DNA from: Beijerinckiaceae bacterium
Lineage (GTDB): Bacteria; Pseudomonadota; Alphaproteobacteria; Rhizobiales; Beijerinckiaceae
NCBI GenBank assembly: GCA_024304885.1
Contig: JALJOM010000003.1
Coordinates: 468,110-532,109, forward strand
Direction of reading: 5' to 3'
Length of the DNA: 64,000 nucleotides
Translations under genes and position numbers: made by a program
Notes under the pieces: generated by a model
The model's input: the letters and a program-made list of their open reading frames with translations, nothing else
The model's database searches: none
Told to the model about the DNA's origin: nothing
Shown: in pieces, positions 16,590 through 60,816 of the stretch
Position numbering within the stretch: position 1 is the first letter of the stretch
Layout: every line of letters begins with the position of its first letter

Positions 16590-16709
16590 CTAGATCACGA
16601 TGACTTTGGATCGAATCGATTCAAAGTCATGAAACGTGATCGATTCCAAAAAGTTTAGAGCGCGATGCGGGTGGCAAGCCGCTGTACACTTTTCCTCATC
16701 CCGCTCTAG
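16590..16709 (+). repeat. Type A palindromic repeat, copy 1
   Basis: The repeat runs from CTAGATCACG to CCGCTCTAG. The first stem-loop is GACTTTGGATCGA a TCGATTCAAAGTC, with one G-T wobble in 13 pairs. The second stem is formed by GAGCGCGATG and CATCCCGCTC. It stands in a gene-poor region. Confidence 0.85.
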
Positions 16710-17162: not shown

Positions 17163-17265
17163 GCGCCATTTCGCGATGCGAACCGGTGCCCACCTCGCTG
17201 GAAATTGCGACAAAACAAGAATGTAGAGCGGGTTTCCGATTCCACCGGATCGGAAACTGCTCTAG
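17163..17265 (+). repeat. Type B palindromic repeat, copy 1
   Basis: The 5' half is imperfect here. The 3' stem-loop GTTTCCGAT ... ATCGGAAAC is clear and is enclosed by AGAGC and GCTCTAG, the same end pattern as in type A repeats. Confidence 0.7.
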
Positions 17266-22363: not shown

Positions 22364-22421
22364 GCCGCCCGGTCGGGCAACGACGGAATATGCGGGGCCT
22401 CGTCGGTGCGACGCGGGCCTT

Positions 22422-22534
22422 CGATCACGATGAAGCTGGATCGAATCGATCCGGCTTCATCGTGATCGATACTAGAAGTTCAGAGCGGGATGTGGGCGGA
22501 AAACCGGCGTCCACTTTTCCTCATCCCGCTCTAG
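22422..22534 (+). repeat. Type A palindromic repeat, copy 2
   Basis: In this copy the first stem reads GAAGCTGGATCGA a TCGATCCGGCTTC. The arms differ from the consensus but still pair, with one G-T wobble, so the change is compensated. The 3' part ends CATCCCGCTCTAG as usual. Confidence 0.85.
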
Positions 22535-22569: not shown

Positions 22570-22687
22570 AGTAGATCGCATTGAATTCGGACCGGTTCGA
22601 TCCGAATTCATGAATGCGATCGAAGAAAATGTTCAGAGCGGGGTGCGGGCGGAAAGCCGGTGTGCACCTTACCTCGTCTCTCTCCAG
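22570..22687 (+). repeat. Type A palindromic repeat, copy 3 (divergent)
   Basis: The stem is GAATTCGGACCGG t TCGATCCGAATTC. Its outer eight pairs are completely different from the consensus yet still complementary. The 3' half (TTCAGAGCGGGGTGCGGGCGG, shown in part) is recognisable. It follows copy 2 by 35 bp, so the 494-bp argS-SPOR gap is mostly repeat. Confidence 0.75.
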
Positions 22688-27070: not shown

Positions 27071-27190
27071 CTAGTTCACGACGACGTTGGATCGAATCGA
27101 TCCAAAGTCATGAAACATGATCGATTCCAAAACTTCGAGAGTGGGATGCGGACGGAAAACCGCTGTACACATTTCCTCATCCCGCTCTAG
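27071..27190 (+). repeat. Type A palindromic repeat, copy 4
   Basis: The 5' stem is GACGTTGGATCGA a TCGATCCAAAGTC with one mismatch. The 3' stem pairs GTGGGATG with CATCCCGC imperfectly. It ends in CCGCTCTAG and is joined directly to a type B repeat. Confidence 0.85.
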
Positions 27191-27290
27191 AGCGATTTCC
27201 AGCGAAGTGGAGACCGCTTCGCCTCGCGAAAGTGCGATAAGGCAAGAAGTAGAGCCGGTTTCCGATTCCATCGGAACGGAAAGCGCTCCA
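27189..27290 (+). repeat. Type B palindromic repeat, copy 2 (joined to a type A copy)
   Basis: The element begins AGAGCGATTTCCAGCGAAG and contains CGAAGTGG...CCGCTTCG. It ends with the stem GTTTCCGATTCCATCGGAAC and GCGCTCC. Together with the adjacent type A copy it fills nearly the whole tatA-tatB gap. Confidence 0.75.
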
Positions 27291-27310
27291 GCGCCGGCTG
27301 AAAGGTGTCC

Positions 27311-28439: not shown

Positions 28440-29123
28440 ATGCTCTCCTGGCTGCTCGGTCGTGCCCCGAACAGGACCATCATAGAGCGGCTTCACGCCG
28501 AGATCGTGGCAGCCGCACGTGATCCTGCCTTTTTCACGACCTACGGAATCGCCGATTCTTTCGAGGGCCGCTTCGAGGTCGTCACGCTTCATGCGTGGCT
28601 TGCCTTGCGCCGACTTTCCGCCTTGCCGCCGCCCGCGCCCGAGATCGCGCAGGACCTGACCGATCTCTTGTTTCGGCACTTCGACCTCGCCCTGCGCGAG
28701 CTGGGCGTCGGGGACACGAGCGTGCCGAAGCATATGCGCCGCCTCGCCGAGGCTTTCCTCGGGCGCTGTGCGGCCTATGATGCGGCGCTGAAGGCGGGCC
28801 GCACGACCCTGGATCACGATGACCCCGGATCGAACCCATCCAAGGTCATGAACGTGATCTATCCCTCGAGTCCAGAGCGGGATGCGGGAGGAAAGCCGGT
28901 GCCCGCTTTTCTTCGTCCCGCTCTAGCGGCGGCCCTGGCGCGCAATGTCTATGTCGGGGCGGGCGATCCCGGACTCCTCGCCGCTTTCGTCGAGGCGGCC
29001 GATGCGGCCCTGGCTCGCACGCCGCTCGAGGCTTTCGTGATCGGGCCGCTGCGGTTTCCCGATCCCGCGAGTATCGAGGAACCACGCGACGTGGACGTCG
29101 CTGGGCGAGCGAAGCTTTCCTGA
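28440..29123 (+). CDS. Ubiquinol-cytochrome c chaperone family protein with an in-frame repeat insertion
   Basis: The protein helps mature the cytochrome bc1 complex; the family pattern is clear (FEVVTLHAWLALRRLS, LTDLLFRHFDLALRELGVGD, KHMRRLAEAFLGRCAAYDAAL). The chain has 227 residues, longer than I expect for the family. About 39 extra residues (LDHDDPGSNPSKVMNV...VPAFLRPAL) coincide exactly with a type A palindromic repeat at 28809-28926. The reading frame stays open through the repeat and the family sequence resumes as AAALARNVYVG. The ordinary protein would be about 188 residues. The inserted segment lies between two predicted helices, so the product may still fold. Confidence 0.85.
   Translation: MLSWLLGRAPNRTIIERLHAEIVAAARDPAFFTTYGIADSFEGRFEVVTLHAWLALRRLSALPPPAPEIAQDLTDLLFRHFDLALRELGVGDTSVPKHMRRLAEAFLGRCAAYDAALKAGRTTLDHDDPGSNPSKVMNVIYPSSPERDAGGKPVPAFLRPALAAALARNVYVGAGDPGLLAAFVEAADAALARTPLEAFVIGPLRFPDPASIEEPRDVDVAGRAKLS
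28809..28926 (+). repeat. Type A palindromic repeat inside a coding sequence
   Basis: It runs from CTGGATCACGATGACCCCGG to CGTCCCGCTCTAG within the chaperone gene, in the sense direction. The 5' stem has decayed (GACCCCGGATCGA / CCCATCCAAGGTC) while the reading frame stays open, consistent with selection on the protein rather than the palindrome. Confidence 0.85.
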
Positions 29124-35159: not shown

Positions 35160-35261
35160 AGCACTTTCTAGCGAAGTGGGCGCCGGTTCGCGTCGTGAAA
35201 TCGCGACAAAACAAGAATGCAGAGCTGGTTTCCGATTCCGCCAGATCGGAAACCGCTCTAA
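35157..35261 (+). repeat. Type B palindromic repeat, copy 3
   Basis: It begins TAGAGCACTTTCTAGCGAAG. The 3' stem is GGTTTCCGAT ... ATCGGAAACC within AGAGC...GCTCT. The repeat is GC-normal and directly abuts the AT-rich glycosyltransferase gene, whose stop codon it provides. Confidence 0.8.
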
Positions 35262-39981: not shown

Positions 39982-40100
39982 CTAGAGCGGGACGAGGAAA
40001 AGTGGACACCGGTTTTCCGCCCGCATCTCGCTCTAAACTTTTGGAATCGATCATGTTTCATGACTTTGGATCGATTCGATCCAAAGTCATCGTGATCTAG
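39982..40100 (-). repeat. Type A palindromic repeat, copy 6
   Basis: On the minus strand the 5' stem is perfect and extends to GATCACGATGACTTTGG... over 22 bp. The other end pairs AGAGCGAGATG and CGTCCCGCTCT imperfectly. Its CTAG at 40097-40100 supplies the TAG stop of the nickel/cobalt transporter gene. It fills a third of the 328-bp gap between two minus-strand genes. Confidence 0.9.
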
Positions 40101-41149: not shown

Positions 41150-41671
41150 CCGTACGCTGGTCCGTGCGCTCGACCTCGGCAATTCCCGGCGCCGCGGAGC
41201 CCGCTTCGCATTTCGATCTCGATGTTTCGATAGATCGACATCGATGGAAATTGCGACGAAACAAGTGCGGAGAGCGGTTTCCGATGCGGGATAAAAAACC
41301 GCTCCGAGGTCGAGCATGGCATAGCTTCCGGCCGGCGTGAAGCGACATTTCTCGCGGGGTCGCTTCCCGCGCCGATCCGAGTCCTCGCGCAGTTTCGGGC
41401 GAACCGGTGCCCGGTTCGTGTCGCGAAAACGCGACAAGACGAGCTCGAAGTGTTGATTTCCGATTCGAATGGATCGCGAGTCGCGCTACGCGCTGGGAAA
41501 TCCGGCCTCACCGTCACCCGAGAGATCCATGCCCCGGATCCCGGCCGCGCGGGATGCTCGAGCCGATCTCGGCCCGCGCTCGACCGCCTCGGCTGGCGGG
41601 CTTATAGTGTTCTCAACGGCGTGAGCACTCGTTGCCTCTTCCCGCGCCGGCCCCGATCTCGGCCCTCCCCC
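41150..41671. repeat. Intergenic region with two decayed type B repeats
   Basis: Between the divergent transporter and pcs genes lie two decayed type B copies. One at about 41208-41292 contains GGAAATTGCGACGAAACAAG and AGAGCGGTTTCCGAT. One at about 41397-41490 contains GAACCGGTGCCCGGTTCGTG and GATTTCCGATTCGAATGG. Both have lost one of the two stems. I see no gene here. Confidence 0.5.
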
Positions 41672-49367: not shown

Positions 49368-50369
49368 ATGAGCCATCGCTGTTCGAGCTTGCGGCACCAG
49401 CCGTTCGCGGGCTCTATAGGTACAGGTTCGATTCAACGATGGTGGTGGCAATTGTCTCTCTTCGATCACCTTTGGCTGCCCGGAGCCGCAGGCCGGACCA
49501 CCCACGAGAGGCGCGCCTCGTCCCTTTGTGGAATCTCACGAATCTCCGCGGTAGCCGTCACCCTCGCCGCCGCGACAGGATTTGCCCACGCCGCGGACCT
49601 TCCGAGCGCGGCGGTCGCGCCTCCACCCGTCCCGGTCAGCCCGCCTGTGCAACCCGCGGCATTCGACTGGACAGGGTTCTACATCGGAGCGCATGGCGGC
49701 GTCGGATACGACCATTACGCCTTCAAATATGCCATCGATGTCCCCGGGGCGTCCTTCACGGGCACGGACGGGATCGACGGATTCGGGCCGCTCCTCGGGT
49801 TGCAGGTCGGCTACAACTACCAAATTCCCCTGAGCGCCCTGCCGGTCGTCAACAAGCTTCCGGGCGGCCTCGTTCTCGGCGTCGAGGTCGACAACAGCTG
49901 GACCGGCATCTACGGCGACACGACCGGCAGCGGAATTCCTGCCACGACCCAGGGTCTCGTGACCTTCGGCGGTCGCTTCGTCAATGTGGGAACCGCACGG
50001 CTTCGAATCGGCTATGCGCTCGACCGTTTTCTCTTCTACGTGACCGGCGGCTTCGCCTATGGGGTCACGAAGACCTATTACCGCCTCCAAACGGCGACCG
50101 GCTTCCAGGCTTCCGGCGTCAGCACCGACGTGCGTTCAGGCGTCGTTCCCCACGTCGGGTCCCTCGGCTTCGGCGTGGAATACGCGATCGATCGGAACTG
50201 GACCGTGCGCGGCGAGTATATGTACGACGGTATCAATGCCCATTACGAAGTGTTCAACCCCGTGGCCGGGGCGAACGTCGGCTTCGGGACGCGGACGATG
50301 TATCATCTCGCCCGCCTCGGCGTGAACTACAAGTTCGACTGGGTGCAGCCCGCGGCCGTGTTCAAGTGA
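49368..50369 (+). CDS. Outer-membrane beta-barrel protein (Omp25/31-like), copy 1
   Basis: The protein has a signal-like stretch (SAVAVTLAAATGFAHAADL) and the Hyphomicrobiales barrel motif FDWTGFYIGAHGGVGYD, followed by paired amphipathic strands and the C-terminal GFGTRTMYHLARLGVNYKFDW. It is an eight-stranded OmpA-like barrel of unknown substrate. The start is uncertain: the ATG at 49368 gives 333 residues with an unusually long leader, and a TTG at 49452 gives 305. A paralogue follows after a palindromic repeat. Confidence 0.8.
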   Translation: MSHRCSSLRHQPFAGSIGTGSIQRWWWQLSLFDHLWLPGAAGRTTHERRASSLCGISRISAVAVTLAAATGFAHAADLPSAAVAPPPVPVSPPVQPAAFDWTGFYIGAHGGVGYDHYAFKYAIDVPGASFTGTDGIDGFGPLLGLQVGYNYQIPLSALPVVNKLPGGLVLGVEVDNSWTGIYGDTTGSGIPATTQGLVTFGGRFVNVGTARLRIGYALDRFLFYVTGGFAYGVTKTYYRLQTATGFQASGVSTDVRSGVVPHVGSLGFGVEYAIDRNWTVRGEYMYDGINAHYEVFNPVAGANVGFGTRTMYHLARLGVNYKFDWVQPAAVFK

Positions 50370-50621
50370 CGGCGCGGCGCGCTCACCACACAGGCGCGCC
50401 TCGAAGGTTGCGGATGTGGGCTCGGGGGCGCGCGCGAAGGGTAGGGGCTCCCGGTCCTCTTCGCGTCGGCATGGCTCTCCTTCCGCCCGAGGAGATGTGC
50501 AGCCCGCTGCAGATGATGGATCCGACGCCGGCCTCGGCGAGTGCGTGCCCATTGCGCAACAGCGAGCGCGAATCGCGCAGATGGCCATAGCACCCGCTCG
50601 AACAATTCACCCGGCAAAGCT

Positions 50622-50740
50622 CTAGAGCGGGACGAGGAAAAGCGTACCGCGGTTTTCCGCCCAGAGCCCGCTCTAAACTATTGGAATCGAACACGCTTCA
50701 TGACCTTGGATCGATTCGATCCAAGGTCCTCGTGATCTAG
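50622..50740 (-). repeat. Type A palindromic repeat, copy 7
   Basis: The stem is GACCTTGGATCGA a TCGATCCAAGGTC on the minus strand: perfect, with a consensus T-A pair replaced by C-G on both sides, a clean compensatory change. It lies between the two paralogous barrel genes and makes up much of the 407-bp gap. Confidence 0.9.
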
Positions 50741-50776
50741 TACCTTCGAGACCCTCCGGACGAAGGATCGCCGGCT

Positions 50777-51607
50777 TTGACAGCATCCCCCTTGCTTCAT
50801 TGTTGCAGAACCTCCCTCGCCGGCAGGGTGGCCTCTTTCTTCGTCGCGCTCTTCTCCTGCCTCGGAGCCGCTCGCGGCGCGGATGTGCCCGAGCCCATGC
50901 TGCGCTCGGCGCCAGCCGAGGCGACGCTCGACAATTTCAATTGGACCGGCGTCCATGTCGGGATCCACGGTGGTTTCGGGGTCGATCATTTCGGCTTCAA
51001 ATACGGCGTGGTCTCGCCCGCCACGGCATTCTCGGGAACCGACGGGATCACCGGTGTCGGGCCGATCGGCGGCATCCAAGCCGGGTTCACCTATCAGTTT
51101 CCCTTCAAGCTCCTCGTCCCTTACGATTTCGTCGCCGGTCTCGAGTTCGATGCGAGCTGGTCCGGCATTGCGGGCGAGACCACCGCCGTCAGCGCCGCGC
51201 CCGCGGGTCAAGGTACCGCCACATTCGGCAGCAAGTTCGCGAGCTTCGGAACGGGGCGGATACGTCTCGGCTGTGCGCTCGGCCGGTTCTTTCCCTATAT
51301 CACCGGTGGATTCACCTACGGCATCGTCGAGAGCCACGGAAGCGCCGCCACGAACGGTGGATTTTTCGTCTCCGGATCGACCACGGCTCTGCGCTCCGGG
51401 GTCTTGCCCCATGTCGGGAACGTCGGCATCGGTGTCGAATATGCCATGACAACCAATTGGACCGTGAAGGCTGAATATCTCTACGAGTTCATCAACGCTC
51501 GCCGCGTGGAGTTCCAGTCTCCCGACGGCACCAGCCTCGGCTTCGGCACACGAACCATGTATCATATCGGTCGCGTCGGCCTGAACTACAGGTTCGATTG
51601 GCTATAG
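50777..51607 (+). CDS. Outer-membrane beta-barrel protein (Omp25/31-like), copy 2
   Basis: The 276-residue paralogue of the preceding barrel carries the motifs FNWTGVHVGIHGGFGVDHFG and GFGTRTMYHIGRVGLNYRFDW (last 20 cited in part), with a signal peptide (ASFFVALFSCLGAARGA). It probably starts at TTG 50777, since no ATG or GTG precedes the signal peptide in frame. The stop TAG is the beginning of a type B repeat. The pair looks like a tandem duplication later separated by a type A repeat. Confidence 0.8.
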   Translation: MTASPLLHCCRTSLAGRVASFFVALFSCLGAARGADVPEPMLRSAPAEATLDNFNWTGVHVGIHGGFGVDHFGFKYGVVSPATAFSGTDGITGVGPIGGIQAGFTYQFPFKLLVPYDFVAGLEFDASWSGIAGETTAVSAAPAGQGTATFGSKFASFGTGRIRLGCALGRFFPYITGGFTYGIVESHGSAATNGGFFVSGSTTALRSGVLPHVGNVGIGVEYAMTTNWTVKAEYLYEFINARRVEFQSPDGTSLGFGTRTMYHIGRVGLNYRFDWL

Positions 51608-51751: not shown

Positions 51752-53962
51752 TCACGCGACCTGCTTCTCCCTTGTCGCAAATCGTCCGTAGAACGTGTCG
51801 CCCGTCCTCGCGAGCTCGCCGAGGAGACGCGGCGGCGTGAAGCGAGCGCCATGCGTCTGCGCCAAGTCATTGCACAGTGACACGAAATTTCCCACACCGA
51901 TCCCGTCGATATAGCTCAGTGTCCCGCCGGTGAAAGGCGCGAAGCCGAAGCCGATGATCGAGCCGACGTCGGCCTCCCGCGGATCCGTCACGACGCCCTC
52001 CTCGAAAGTGCGCGCCGCCTCGAGCGCCTGCACCGCGAGCAAACGCTGCTTCAGGGTGTGAACGTCGATCGTTTCCGCATCGAGGCGCGCGGGACGAAGC
52101 TCGTCGAGGCCCTGCCACAGCGCCTTCGCGCCGATCGCGGGATAGTCGTAGAACCCCTTGCCGTTCTTGCGGCCCTGACGTCCGTGCGCGACCACCATGG
52201 ATTCCAGCAAGCGGAGCTGCGCCGGATCGATGCTCGCTTCGCCCTCGTCCTGTCGTGTCGTCTGCAGGATCTTCAAGACGAGATCGAGCGCGACCTCGTC
52301 GTTGAGCGCGAGCGGGCCGACCGGCATTCCGGCCATCCGCGCCGCGTTCTCGATCAGCGCCGGCGGCACCCCCTCGATCAGCATGAGGTGACCTTCGCGT
52401 ATGTAGCTGCCGACACAACGATTGGCGTAGAAGCCGCGCGAATCGTTGACGACGATCGGTGTCTTCTTGATCGCCCGGACATAGTCCATGGCCGTCGCGA
52501 GGGCGCGCTCCCCGGACTTGGCGCCGAGAATCACCTCGACGAGCAGCATCTTCTCGACCGGCGAGAAGAAATGAATGCCGATGAAGCTTTCCGGCTTGGT
52601 ATGGGCATGTGCGAGCGAGCCGATCGGCAGGGTCGAGGTGTTGGAGGCGAAGATCACGTCGGGACCGAGCACGGCCTCGGCCTTGCGCGTCGCCTCCGCC
52701 TTCACCTCGCGGTCCTCGAAGACCGCCTCGATCACGAGGTCCGAGCCTGCGAGATCGGCATAATCCGCCGTGGCGGTGATGTGGGCAAGAAGCGCCTCCT
52801 TGTCGGTGCCCTTGGCACGACCTTTGAGGACCTGCGACGAGATCATCTTGTCGCAGGTGCCCTTGCCCCTGTCGGCAGCGGCCTGGTCGCGGTCGATCAA
52901 CACCACATCCATGCCCGCCCCGGCCGTCACATAGGCGATGCCGGCACCCATGAATCCCGCGCCGAGAACGCCGACCTTCCTGATCGTGGTGCGAGGGATC
53001 TGCGCCGGCCGCCGTGCGCCCTTGTTGAGCTCGCCCATGGAGAGGAACAGGGTCCTGATCATCGCCGCCGCCTCGGGCGAGCGCAGGATCTTGGCGAACC
53101 AGCGCGACTCCACACGCAGCGCGAGATCCATCGGCAGCTGCAATCCCTCGTAGACCGCGTGCAGGATCGCTTTCGCTGCGGGGTAGTTGTCATAGGTCTC
53201 GCGGCGGTAGATCGCGTTGGCGGCAGGCCAGACCATCATGCCCTGCGGCGAGTAGACGCGTCCGGACTGCGGCTTGAAGCCCGGCTCGTCCCAGGGCGCG
53301 ACGGCCTTGCCGCCGCCCGCGATCCAGGCCTTGGCTCTCGCGCCGATCTCGTCCGCCGGAGCCAGATCGTGCACGAGGTTCATGGATTTCGCGGCCTTGG
53401 CGCGGATTTGCTCGCCCTTGAAGAGCATCTGCAGGGCGTCGGCCGTCTGCATCAGGCGGGCTACCCTCTGCGTCCCGCCGGCTCCCGGAAACAGGCCGAC
53501 CTTGATCTCGGGGAGACCCACACGTGTGGTGTCGTCGTCCGCGGCCACGCGGTAGTGGCAGGCGAGCGCGAGCTCGAAGGCGCCGCCGAGGCAGGTCCCC
53601 TTGATCGCGATGGCGAAAGGCTTGCCGCAGATCTCGAGCTTGCGGTAGACGATGGACAGCCGCCGCGCCCCTTCGAAGAAGAGCTCGATCGCCGCCTCCT
53701 CGCCCTTCTCGCGGCGCGCCGTCTCGTAGTCGGCGGAAGCCGCCTGCAGCATGGTGAGATCGGCGCCGCCGGAAAATGTCTCCTTGCCGGAGGCGATCAC
53801 GCAGCCCTTGATCGCTGCCTGGCCCGCGACATGATCGACCACGCGCTCGAGCTCGTCGATGACCTCGGGCGTGATGATGTTCATCGAGCGGTCCGGCATG
53901 TCCCACGTCAAGAGCGCGATGCCGTCGGCGTCGGTCTCGAAGCGAAAGCTCGTAAGTTCCAT
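51752..53962 (-). CDS. fadB: Multifunctional fatty-acid oxidation protein (enoyl-CoA hydratase / 3-hydroxyacyl-CoA dehydrogenase)
   Basis: The 736-residue protein has an N-terminal crotonase domain ([45 protein letters not shown]) and a C-terminal 3-hydroxyacyl-CoA dehydrogenase. The latter has the NAD-binding [20 protein letters not shown] and the catalytic region [16 protein letters not shown]. It performs hydration and NAD-dependent oxidation in beta-oxidation. It is the last gene of the minus-strand unit acyl-CoA dehydrogenase-thiolase-fadB, 17 bp after the thiolase. Confidence 0.94.
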
Positions 53963-60586: not shown

Positions 60587-60688
60587 GAGCAATTTCCGGC
60601 GAAGTGGACTCCAGCCGCGTCGATAAATTGCGATAAAACAATAATGTAGAGCTCGTTTCCGATTCAGTCGGATCGGAAACCGCTCTAG
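60587..60688 (+). repeat. Type B palindromic repeat, copy 5
   Basis: The 5' outer stem is GCAATTT / AAATTGC, a compensated variant of GCATTTT / AAAATGC at 51609. The 3' stem is GTTTCCGAT ... ATCGGAAAC within AGAGC...GCTCTAG. It is followed after 12 bp by a type A copy. Confidence 0.8.
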
Positions 60689-60700
60689 AACGCGCAGCGC

Positions 60701-60816
60701 CTAGATCACGATGACTTTGGATCGAATCGATCCAAAGTCATCGTGATCGATTCCATAAAGCTTAGAGCGGGATGCGGGCGGAAAATCGCTGTACGCTTTT
60801 CCTCGTCGCGCTCTAG
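60701..60816 (+). repeat. Type A palindromic repeat, copy 8 (best-preserved 5' stem)
   Basis: GATCACGATGACTTTGGATC... forms a perfect 22-bp stem with a single-base loop at 60704-60748. The 3' element reads TTAGAGCGGGATGCGGGCGG to CTCGTCGCGCTCTAG. Confidence 0.9.

Follow-up and report, generated by a model that had tools for sequence, protein, structure and literature searches.

A dispersed RIME-like repeat lies in frame within a ubiquinol-cytochrome c chaperone gene of a Beijerinckiaceae bacterium

The chaperone gene and the repeat family

The window, by which we mean the whole 64-kb stretch of DNA that was analysed, carries a ubiquinol-cytochrome c chaperone gene whose open frame runs from an ATG at 28440 to a stop codon at 29121–29123 and encloses a copy of a repeat at 28809–28926. 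The first-pass annotation had matched this segment to repeats elsewhere in the window, and we found that it aligns with seven other window copies.

28440–29123, + strand: ubiquinol-cytochrome c chaperone gene (PF03981), 227 codons plus stop, split in frame by the repeat
28809–28926, + strand: RIME-like element, 118 nt; net 114 nt, which is 38 codons (residues 124–161)
16590–16709, + strand: related copy, 120 nt, without an open frame across it
22420–22534, + strand: related copy, 115 nt, flanks score as non-coding
22571–22687, + strand: related copy, 117 nt, aligned with the chaperone copy
27071–27190, + strand: related copy, 120 nt, without an open frame across it
39982–40100, − strand: related copy, 119 nt, highest covariance-model score among the genome matches listed
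50622–50740, − strand: related copy, 119 nt, without an open frame across it
60701–60816, + strand: related copy, 116 nt, covariance-model match

In a family search the 227-residue product matched PF03981 with an E value of 4.7e-34, and the coordinates and frame originally given for the 118-nt segment were right. A gain of about 39 residues had been proposed; the in-frame gain stood, but its net size is 38 residues, as the 118-nt repeat makes a 114-nt net insertion when its four terminal bases are counted once. By tblastn, 56 of 60 genomes (the organism's own counted) matched the chaperone, and the matches of congeners stopped at residues 118–125 and restarted at 159–161, so that homology to the host gene lies on both sides. 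An alignment with family members, which had been named as a test, comprised 29 relatives from the genus, family and order out of the 55 other genomes with a tblastn match. It showed a gap at the insert, and the segment was present in 0 of the 29 orthologs. The net gain over these orthologs was 38 residues in 17, 37 in 3, 36 in 2, 35 in 5 and 33 in 1; it was 8 against one ortholog (L033, genome G017), in which the site carries separate insertions. The chaperone segment is an in-frame insertion of a dispersed repeat, and chance is excluded.

The solved homolog 6rwt matched chaperone residues 10–120, and its residues 126–136 paired with chaperone residues 161–171 in a sub-threshold stretch. An AlphaFold2 model built with six sequences had a mean pLDDT of 75.9, with blocks across residues 11–110 at 89–94 and blocks across 121–160 at 46–55. 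The low-pLDDT insert sits between predicted helices at 95–122 and 158–169, and the inserted peptide is predicted to form a disordered loop between them. On sequence grounds, the gene is presumably translated through the insert.

The organism's own genome (G000; 3.82 Mb, 8 contigs) contains at least 41 near-full copies of the repeat, the chaperone one included, as scored by blastn for 40 of the 185 first-look candidates. Searching with a covariance model derived from 36 copies gave at least 150 matches, all with E ≤ 1.6e-15, from 150 scored candidates out of 2503. The main sizes in this genome are 118, 119 and 155 nt, of which 119 and 155 are commoner than 118. The 118-nt form adds 114 nt, or 38 whole codons, and its consensus is open in one of six frames, whereas the 119- and 155-nt forms shift the frame; among the own-genome entries scanned, none of these two forms lies in frame with coding support. 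The consensus folds as two adjacent hairpins. The palindrome of the chaperone copy had been described as decayed, a view that our results do not support: 42 of 48 consensus pairs are kept, within a range of 41–47 across 11 copies of the 118-nt form, and its minimum free energy is −53.8, where 46 copies of the 119-nt form average −50.5. Peptide-level matches to the repeat occurred in 11 of 59 relatives at E ≤ 1e-6 and, in an order-wide sample with at most 25 candidates scored per genome, in at least 3 of 296 other genomes at E ≤ 1e-9. Rfam gave no match in the 64-kb window at gathering scores, and phage sequences gave no match to the repeat. In genome G035 we observed tandem arrays of the repeat with 114-nt spacing (L178, L188 and L271), and copies of this kind stand at the ends of several contigs in that assembly.

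We also observed that the loop of hairpin 1 (28832–28836 in the chaperone copy) reads GANTC in most copies. GANTC stands at element position 24 in 106 of the 150 own-genome entries listed, and the stem covaries around the loop (GGATC-GAATC-GATCC in G000, GGATT-GACTC-AATCC in congener G011); the chaperone copy lacks the loop GANTC and has one GANTC at element position 60. PMC2229807 gives GANTC as the motif of the CcrM methyltransferase. A second palindromic repeat, perhaps of the same kind as the 118-nt family, occurs in the window at 17193–17264, 27249–27292, 35189–35260, 41417–41488 and 60616–60687. Most of its copies read GTTTCCGATTCC...GGAAACCGCTCTA, and it carries GATTC, a form of GANTC, and TAGAGC-like ends.

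Element ends and the proposed links to IS630 and RIME

Across 152 own-genome entries, the left end of the element reads C (0.89), T (0.87), A (0.90), G (0.99) and the right end C (0.98), T (0.89), A (0.81), G (0.89), and the four bases beyond the ends reach only 0.32–0.54. The ends read YTAG...CTAR, with TA at both. In congener G011 the outermost bases vary among 34 entries, at least one of which is an opposite-strand artefact (TTAG/CTAG in 7, CTAG/CTAA in 6), and TA with the inner G and C stands at 0.88–1.00; the inner G reaches 0.99–1.00 in element ends. Copies arranged head to tail overlap by 4 nt. Insertion at TA with duplication of TA, mostly within CTAG, would give such variable outer bases around a constant TA. 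One duplication of TA would account for the 114-nt net gain, and duplications of TA and of CTAG are indistinguishable at a CTAG site. IS630 elements favour CTAG. Another repeat (AGCAATTTCCAGCGAAG or its complement, with variants) often adjoins the elements, with CTAG or TCTAG at the junction, as in the right flanks of L013, L016, L022, L025 and L026 and the left flanks of L019 and L029; CTAG sites thus seem to be shared meeting points for several repeat types.

In congener G011 the IS630 family (PF13358) is represented by one element of 1,050 bp (L273:1381–2430) with TAGAGCGGGATGA at both ends. This sequence is the consensus right end of the repeat at 13 of 13 bases, the chaperone copy agreeing at 12 of 13, and the left end of the repeat, TAGATCACGATGA, agrees with the end of this element at 10 of 13 with three differences. 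Among 24 loci with related transposases, only the G011 element has the TAGAGCGGGATGA end; four other transposase loci with detectable ends have only TAGAGC in common. The ends of the repeat are not long inverted repeats. Taken together, the end sequences suggest an IS630-type non-autonomous element. A search of the organism's own genome found no IS630 element with the repeat's end, and the IS630 copies that it has were rejected as parents since their ends do not match. An IS630 remnant beside an element at G000:C3:1352621 was likewise rejected, as it looks like another IS630 that borders on a truncated element. The G011 transposase itself is split over two frames that overlap around a T run, possibly reflecting programmed frameshifting.

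The repeat is not a new family: judged by its similarity to Sinorhizobium copies, one of them at the chvI–chvG locus, it is related to a known rhizobial repeat. The RIME (Rhizobium-specific intergenic mosaic elements) were reportedly described by Osteras et al. in 1995 in the chvI–chvG two-component locus and are said to consist of two adjacent large palindromes. By blastn the 118-nt element matched 92 plasmid records, 90 of them from Sinorhizobium or Ensifer; the best 20 of the 92 matched at 72.5–75% identity over 98–100% of the query. For S. meliloti CP090106.1 (labelled plasmid pSymB, 3.72 Mb), 90 model matches are listed, some of which are opposite-strand pairs at one place, and the copy at 51811–51923 lies between chvG (49818–51551) and chvI (51986–52708). 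Because of this similarity and this copy we call the element RIME-like, a likeness known from Sinorhizobium genome copies rather than from the published RIME sequence. The wording also reflects that intergenic location characterises the copies described so far rather than the sequence itself. The two are alike in their two adjacent palindromes and in the copy between chvI and chvG of S. meliloti; they differ in that RIME is described as intergenic, whereas copies here lie inside the chaperone gene, moeA, hdaA and gcvPB. The best 30 S. meliloti copies have lengths of 0, 1 and 2 mod 3 in 12, 6 and 12 cases, and the peptide is read through in 0 of 11 translated S. meliloti copies. Twenty records had a peptide-level match; in 16 of them no gene is listed where the best match falls, and 4 had no annotation. 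One DNA match among the plasmid records overlaps the 3' end of a ccmF-like gene.

In-frame copies in other genes

The genome search for further in-frame copies, suggested at the outset, found them in moeA, hdaA and gcvPB; own-genome cases came from a coding-potential scan over 157 entries combined with family searches. The 118-nt copy in moeA of G000 is spanned by a MoeA_N match in one stretch. Net gain there was 38 in 4 of 8 orthologs and 39, 35, 35 and 32 in the others, five of 13 congeners being left out of the alignment as their best match was a 35–36% paralog. The 118-nt copy in hdaA of G000 corresponds to a 38-column gap in 12 of 13 orthologs; the other locus (L352) was unaligned at the insert site. 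HdaA had no Pfam match and matched NF006571 below cut-off in two stretches, and both in-frame HdaA and MoeA fall under the NCBIfam cut-offs for their names. In gcvPB an 82-nt truncated copy lies in frame, and NF003346 was matched over cut-off in one stretch. A 115-nt in-frame copy probably lies in a gene for methylmalonyl-CoA mutase: the side before the insert was unmatched in family searches, and we take its sequence to resemble mutase N-termini. Copies of 118 and 112 nt lie in frame near the starts of glyQ and hisI, where the start codon is uncertain and may lie downstream of the element, since the family match begins after the insert. For glyQ the net gain ranged from −6 to 23 against 11 orthologs, the region before the conserved domain start being too variable to measure. 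In congener G011, in-frame copies lie in acr3 (ACR3 arsenite transporter, TIGR00832) and dnaE2 (error-prone DNA polymerase, NF004225), both over cut-off. Weaker in-frame cases are a methyltransferase, a nickel/cobalt exporter-like protein and the MiaB N-terminus in G023, and PBP1C in G008.

Several candidates were set aside. L004 (118 nt) lies in a long frame that leads into a hydrolase domain and was excluded, since the gene probably starts downstream of it. The long open frames that surround L029, L090 and L098 were dropped for want of a Pfam match, a weak ground given that HdaA had none either; for L092 and L096 the coding score decided against them. L127:4865 and L210:1550 were rejected as out-of-frame genic copies, as each lies between neighbouring same-strand genes with the upstream frame ending at the element. 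At these two places (L127:4865–5019 and L210:1550–1665) we observed that the terminal TAG of the element closes the upstream frames of an apparent tssM-like and a pdhA-like gene (names assigned by eye), so that the repeat appears to supply the stop codon.

The seven G000 in-frame cases measure 118, 118, 118 and 82 nt (homology on both sides), 115 nt (probable), and 118 and 112 nt (N-terminal). All seven are 1 mod 3 in length, compared with 39 of 152 entries, or 38 of 149 without three that are low-scoring opposite-strand or doubtful (hypergeometric p of 9e-4 for five cases and 5e-5 for seven). This test is partly circular and by itself proves nothing on selection, because an in-frame insertion must consist of whole codons. 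Only a frame-blind test, which required coding flanks on both sides, bears on selection, and its sample is small: 7 of 238 entries passed, 5 in frame and 2 shifted. The two shifted entries lie between neighbouring genes, and all 5 entries inside one gene are in frame; for G000 only, the figure was 3 of 3 (p = 0.016, background 38 of 149 at 1 mod 3). We drew no length statistics from G011, G023, G033 and G035, whose copies came mostly from the peptide search and are therefore biased towards open, codon-neutral ones. Loss by selection of frame-shifting insertions in needed genes is the likely, plain explanation for the absence of genic 119- and 155-nt copies.

Interpretation and comparison with known systems

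We consider, with a probability of roughly 0.9, that the chaperone segment is a non-autonomous mobile element, RIME-like and of the IS630 type, which inserted at TA and left an unbroken, longer protein with a probably tolerated peptide. The element would insert at TA, usually within CTAG, inside the chaperone gene; an IS630-family transposase would move it in trans, and TA would be duplicated on insertion. The 118-nt form, in the right orientation and phase, would give a longer, unbroken protein, and 119- or 155-nt insertions into needed genes would be lost by selection.

An alternative is that the insert has been kept because its peptide serves the host proteins (domestication), and one comparison, made over 11 of 12 copies of the 118-nt form after the one with a stop was dropped, points that way. 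Changes fell most often at third codon positions (27 of 66 in the four genic copies, 57 of 109 in the seven others), and the synonymous fraction of codon changes (22 of 56 and 38 of 92, respectively) exceeded the 27% expected; in the G000 118-nt set, codon positions 1–3 had 57, 42 and 87 changes. However, genic and non-genic copies show the same pattern, and there is little position bias in the G011 118-nt and G000 115-nt sets. Frames were open in 11 of 12, 22 of 22 and 7 of 8 copies, compared with 9.8, 20.05 and 6.4 in neutral simulation (P = 0.32, 0.14 and 0.52), and selection on the peptide or the frame was rejected for giving no signal above that simulation. The insert is also predicted to be disordered, and the host genes are unrelated. 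We regard such a service to the host as very unlikely; the added chaperone peptide is probably tolerated rather than useful.

Still less probable is that the chaperone gene is a decaying pseudogene that remains open by chance. Decay of a conserved gene commonly begins with an insertion into its middle. But no second chaperone gene was seen in the organism's own genome, where the other tblastn rows listed cover the repeat part of the query; the gene has no stop or frameshift, its coding scores are +32.9 for the 100 codons before the insert and +18.0 for the 64 codons after, and its C-terminal part past the insert is 44–61% identical to those of 13 congeners by tblastn. An ancestral segment lost in relatives, with dispersed copies that merely resemble it, can practically be dismissed, as none of the 29 aligned orthologs has the segment, about 150 further listed copies share its architecture and the same peptide occurs at unrelated sites of unrelated proteins.

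Annotation is affected, in that the 38-residue segment would be taken for a lineage-specific extension, and the several size forms in one genome make the idea of frame neutrality testable. A bolder proposal, which we hold to be unlikely, is that the 118-nt form is a lineage of the rhizobial intergenic element that lives in genes too and, owing to its length and open frame, spreads through Beijerinckiaceae coding sequence, the 119- and 155-nt forms being separate intergenic lineages; an intergenic repeat would then have become a recurrent donor of one 38-residue peptide to unrelated proteins. A full-text literature search, weak in that most subscription papers lie outside its coverage, returned no report of in-frame RIME copies or of such elements in Beijerinckiaceae.

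In-frame palindromic elements are known in Wolbachia too. Intragenic palindromic repeats outside Rickettsia are already in print (PMC2759123, PMC3733652). The ERIC/RU-1, RU-2 and RU-3 repeats of enterobacteria are presented in PMC2759123 as small mobile repeats whose open frames are joined in frame to genes; they belong to another class of bacteria and are compared here by description only. Intragenic REPs (GTAG, CGTC) are palindromic repeats inside genes, also outside Rickettsia (PMC3733652), and differ from the present element in having units of 20–40 bp with other ends. The CIR of Caulobacter and Brucella have two separate stem-loops, TA ends and GANTC sites, and are reported in PMC2229807 to be absent from genes and to have stops in all six frames. 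By description they are alike in the stem-loops, the TA ends and GANTC, which here falls in the hairpin-1 loop of most copies; they are unlike in that the present repeat has in-frame genic copies with one open frame.

There is a parallel in behaviour with the Rickettsia palindromic elements (RPE), which PMC2229807 and PMC10969869 describe as palindromic repeats of 105–146 bp in frame in conserved genes. The first-pass annotation had drawn this parallel, and it holds in the sense that the two work alike, being inserted in frame in conserved genes with one reading frame; the likeness is one of behaviour. Rickettsia are obligate intracellular bacteria, and their reduced genomes and weak selection offer an easy explanation for in-frame palindromic elements. 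Here the same outcome is found in Hyphomicrobiales with genomes of 3–5 Mb, in genes such as hdaA, moeA and dnaE2, and from a repeat family known as intergenic in rhizobia.
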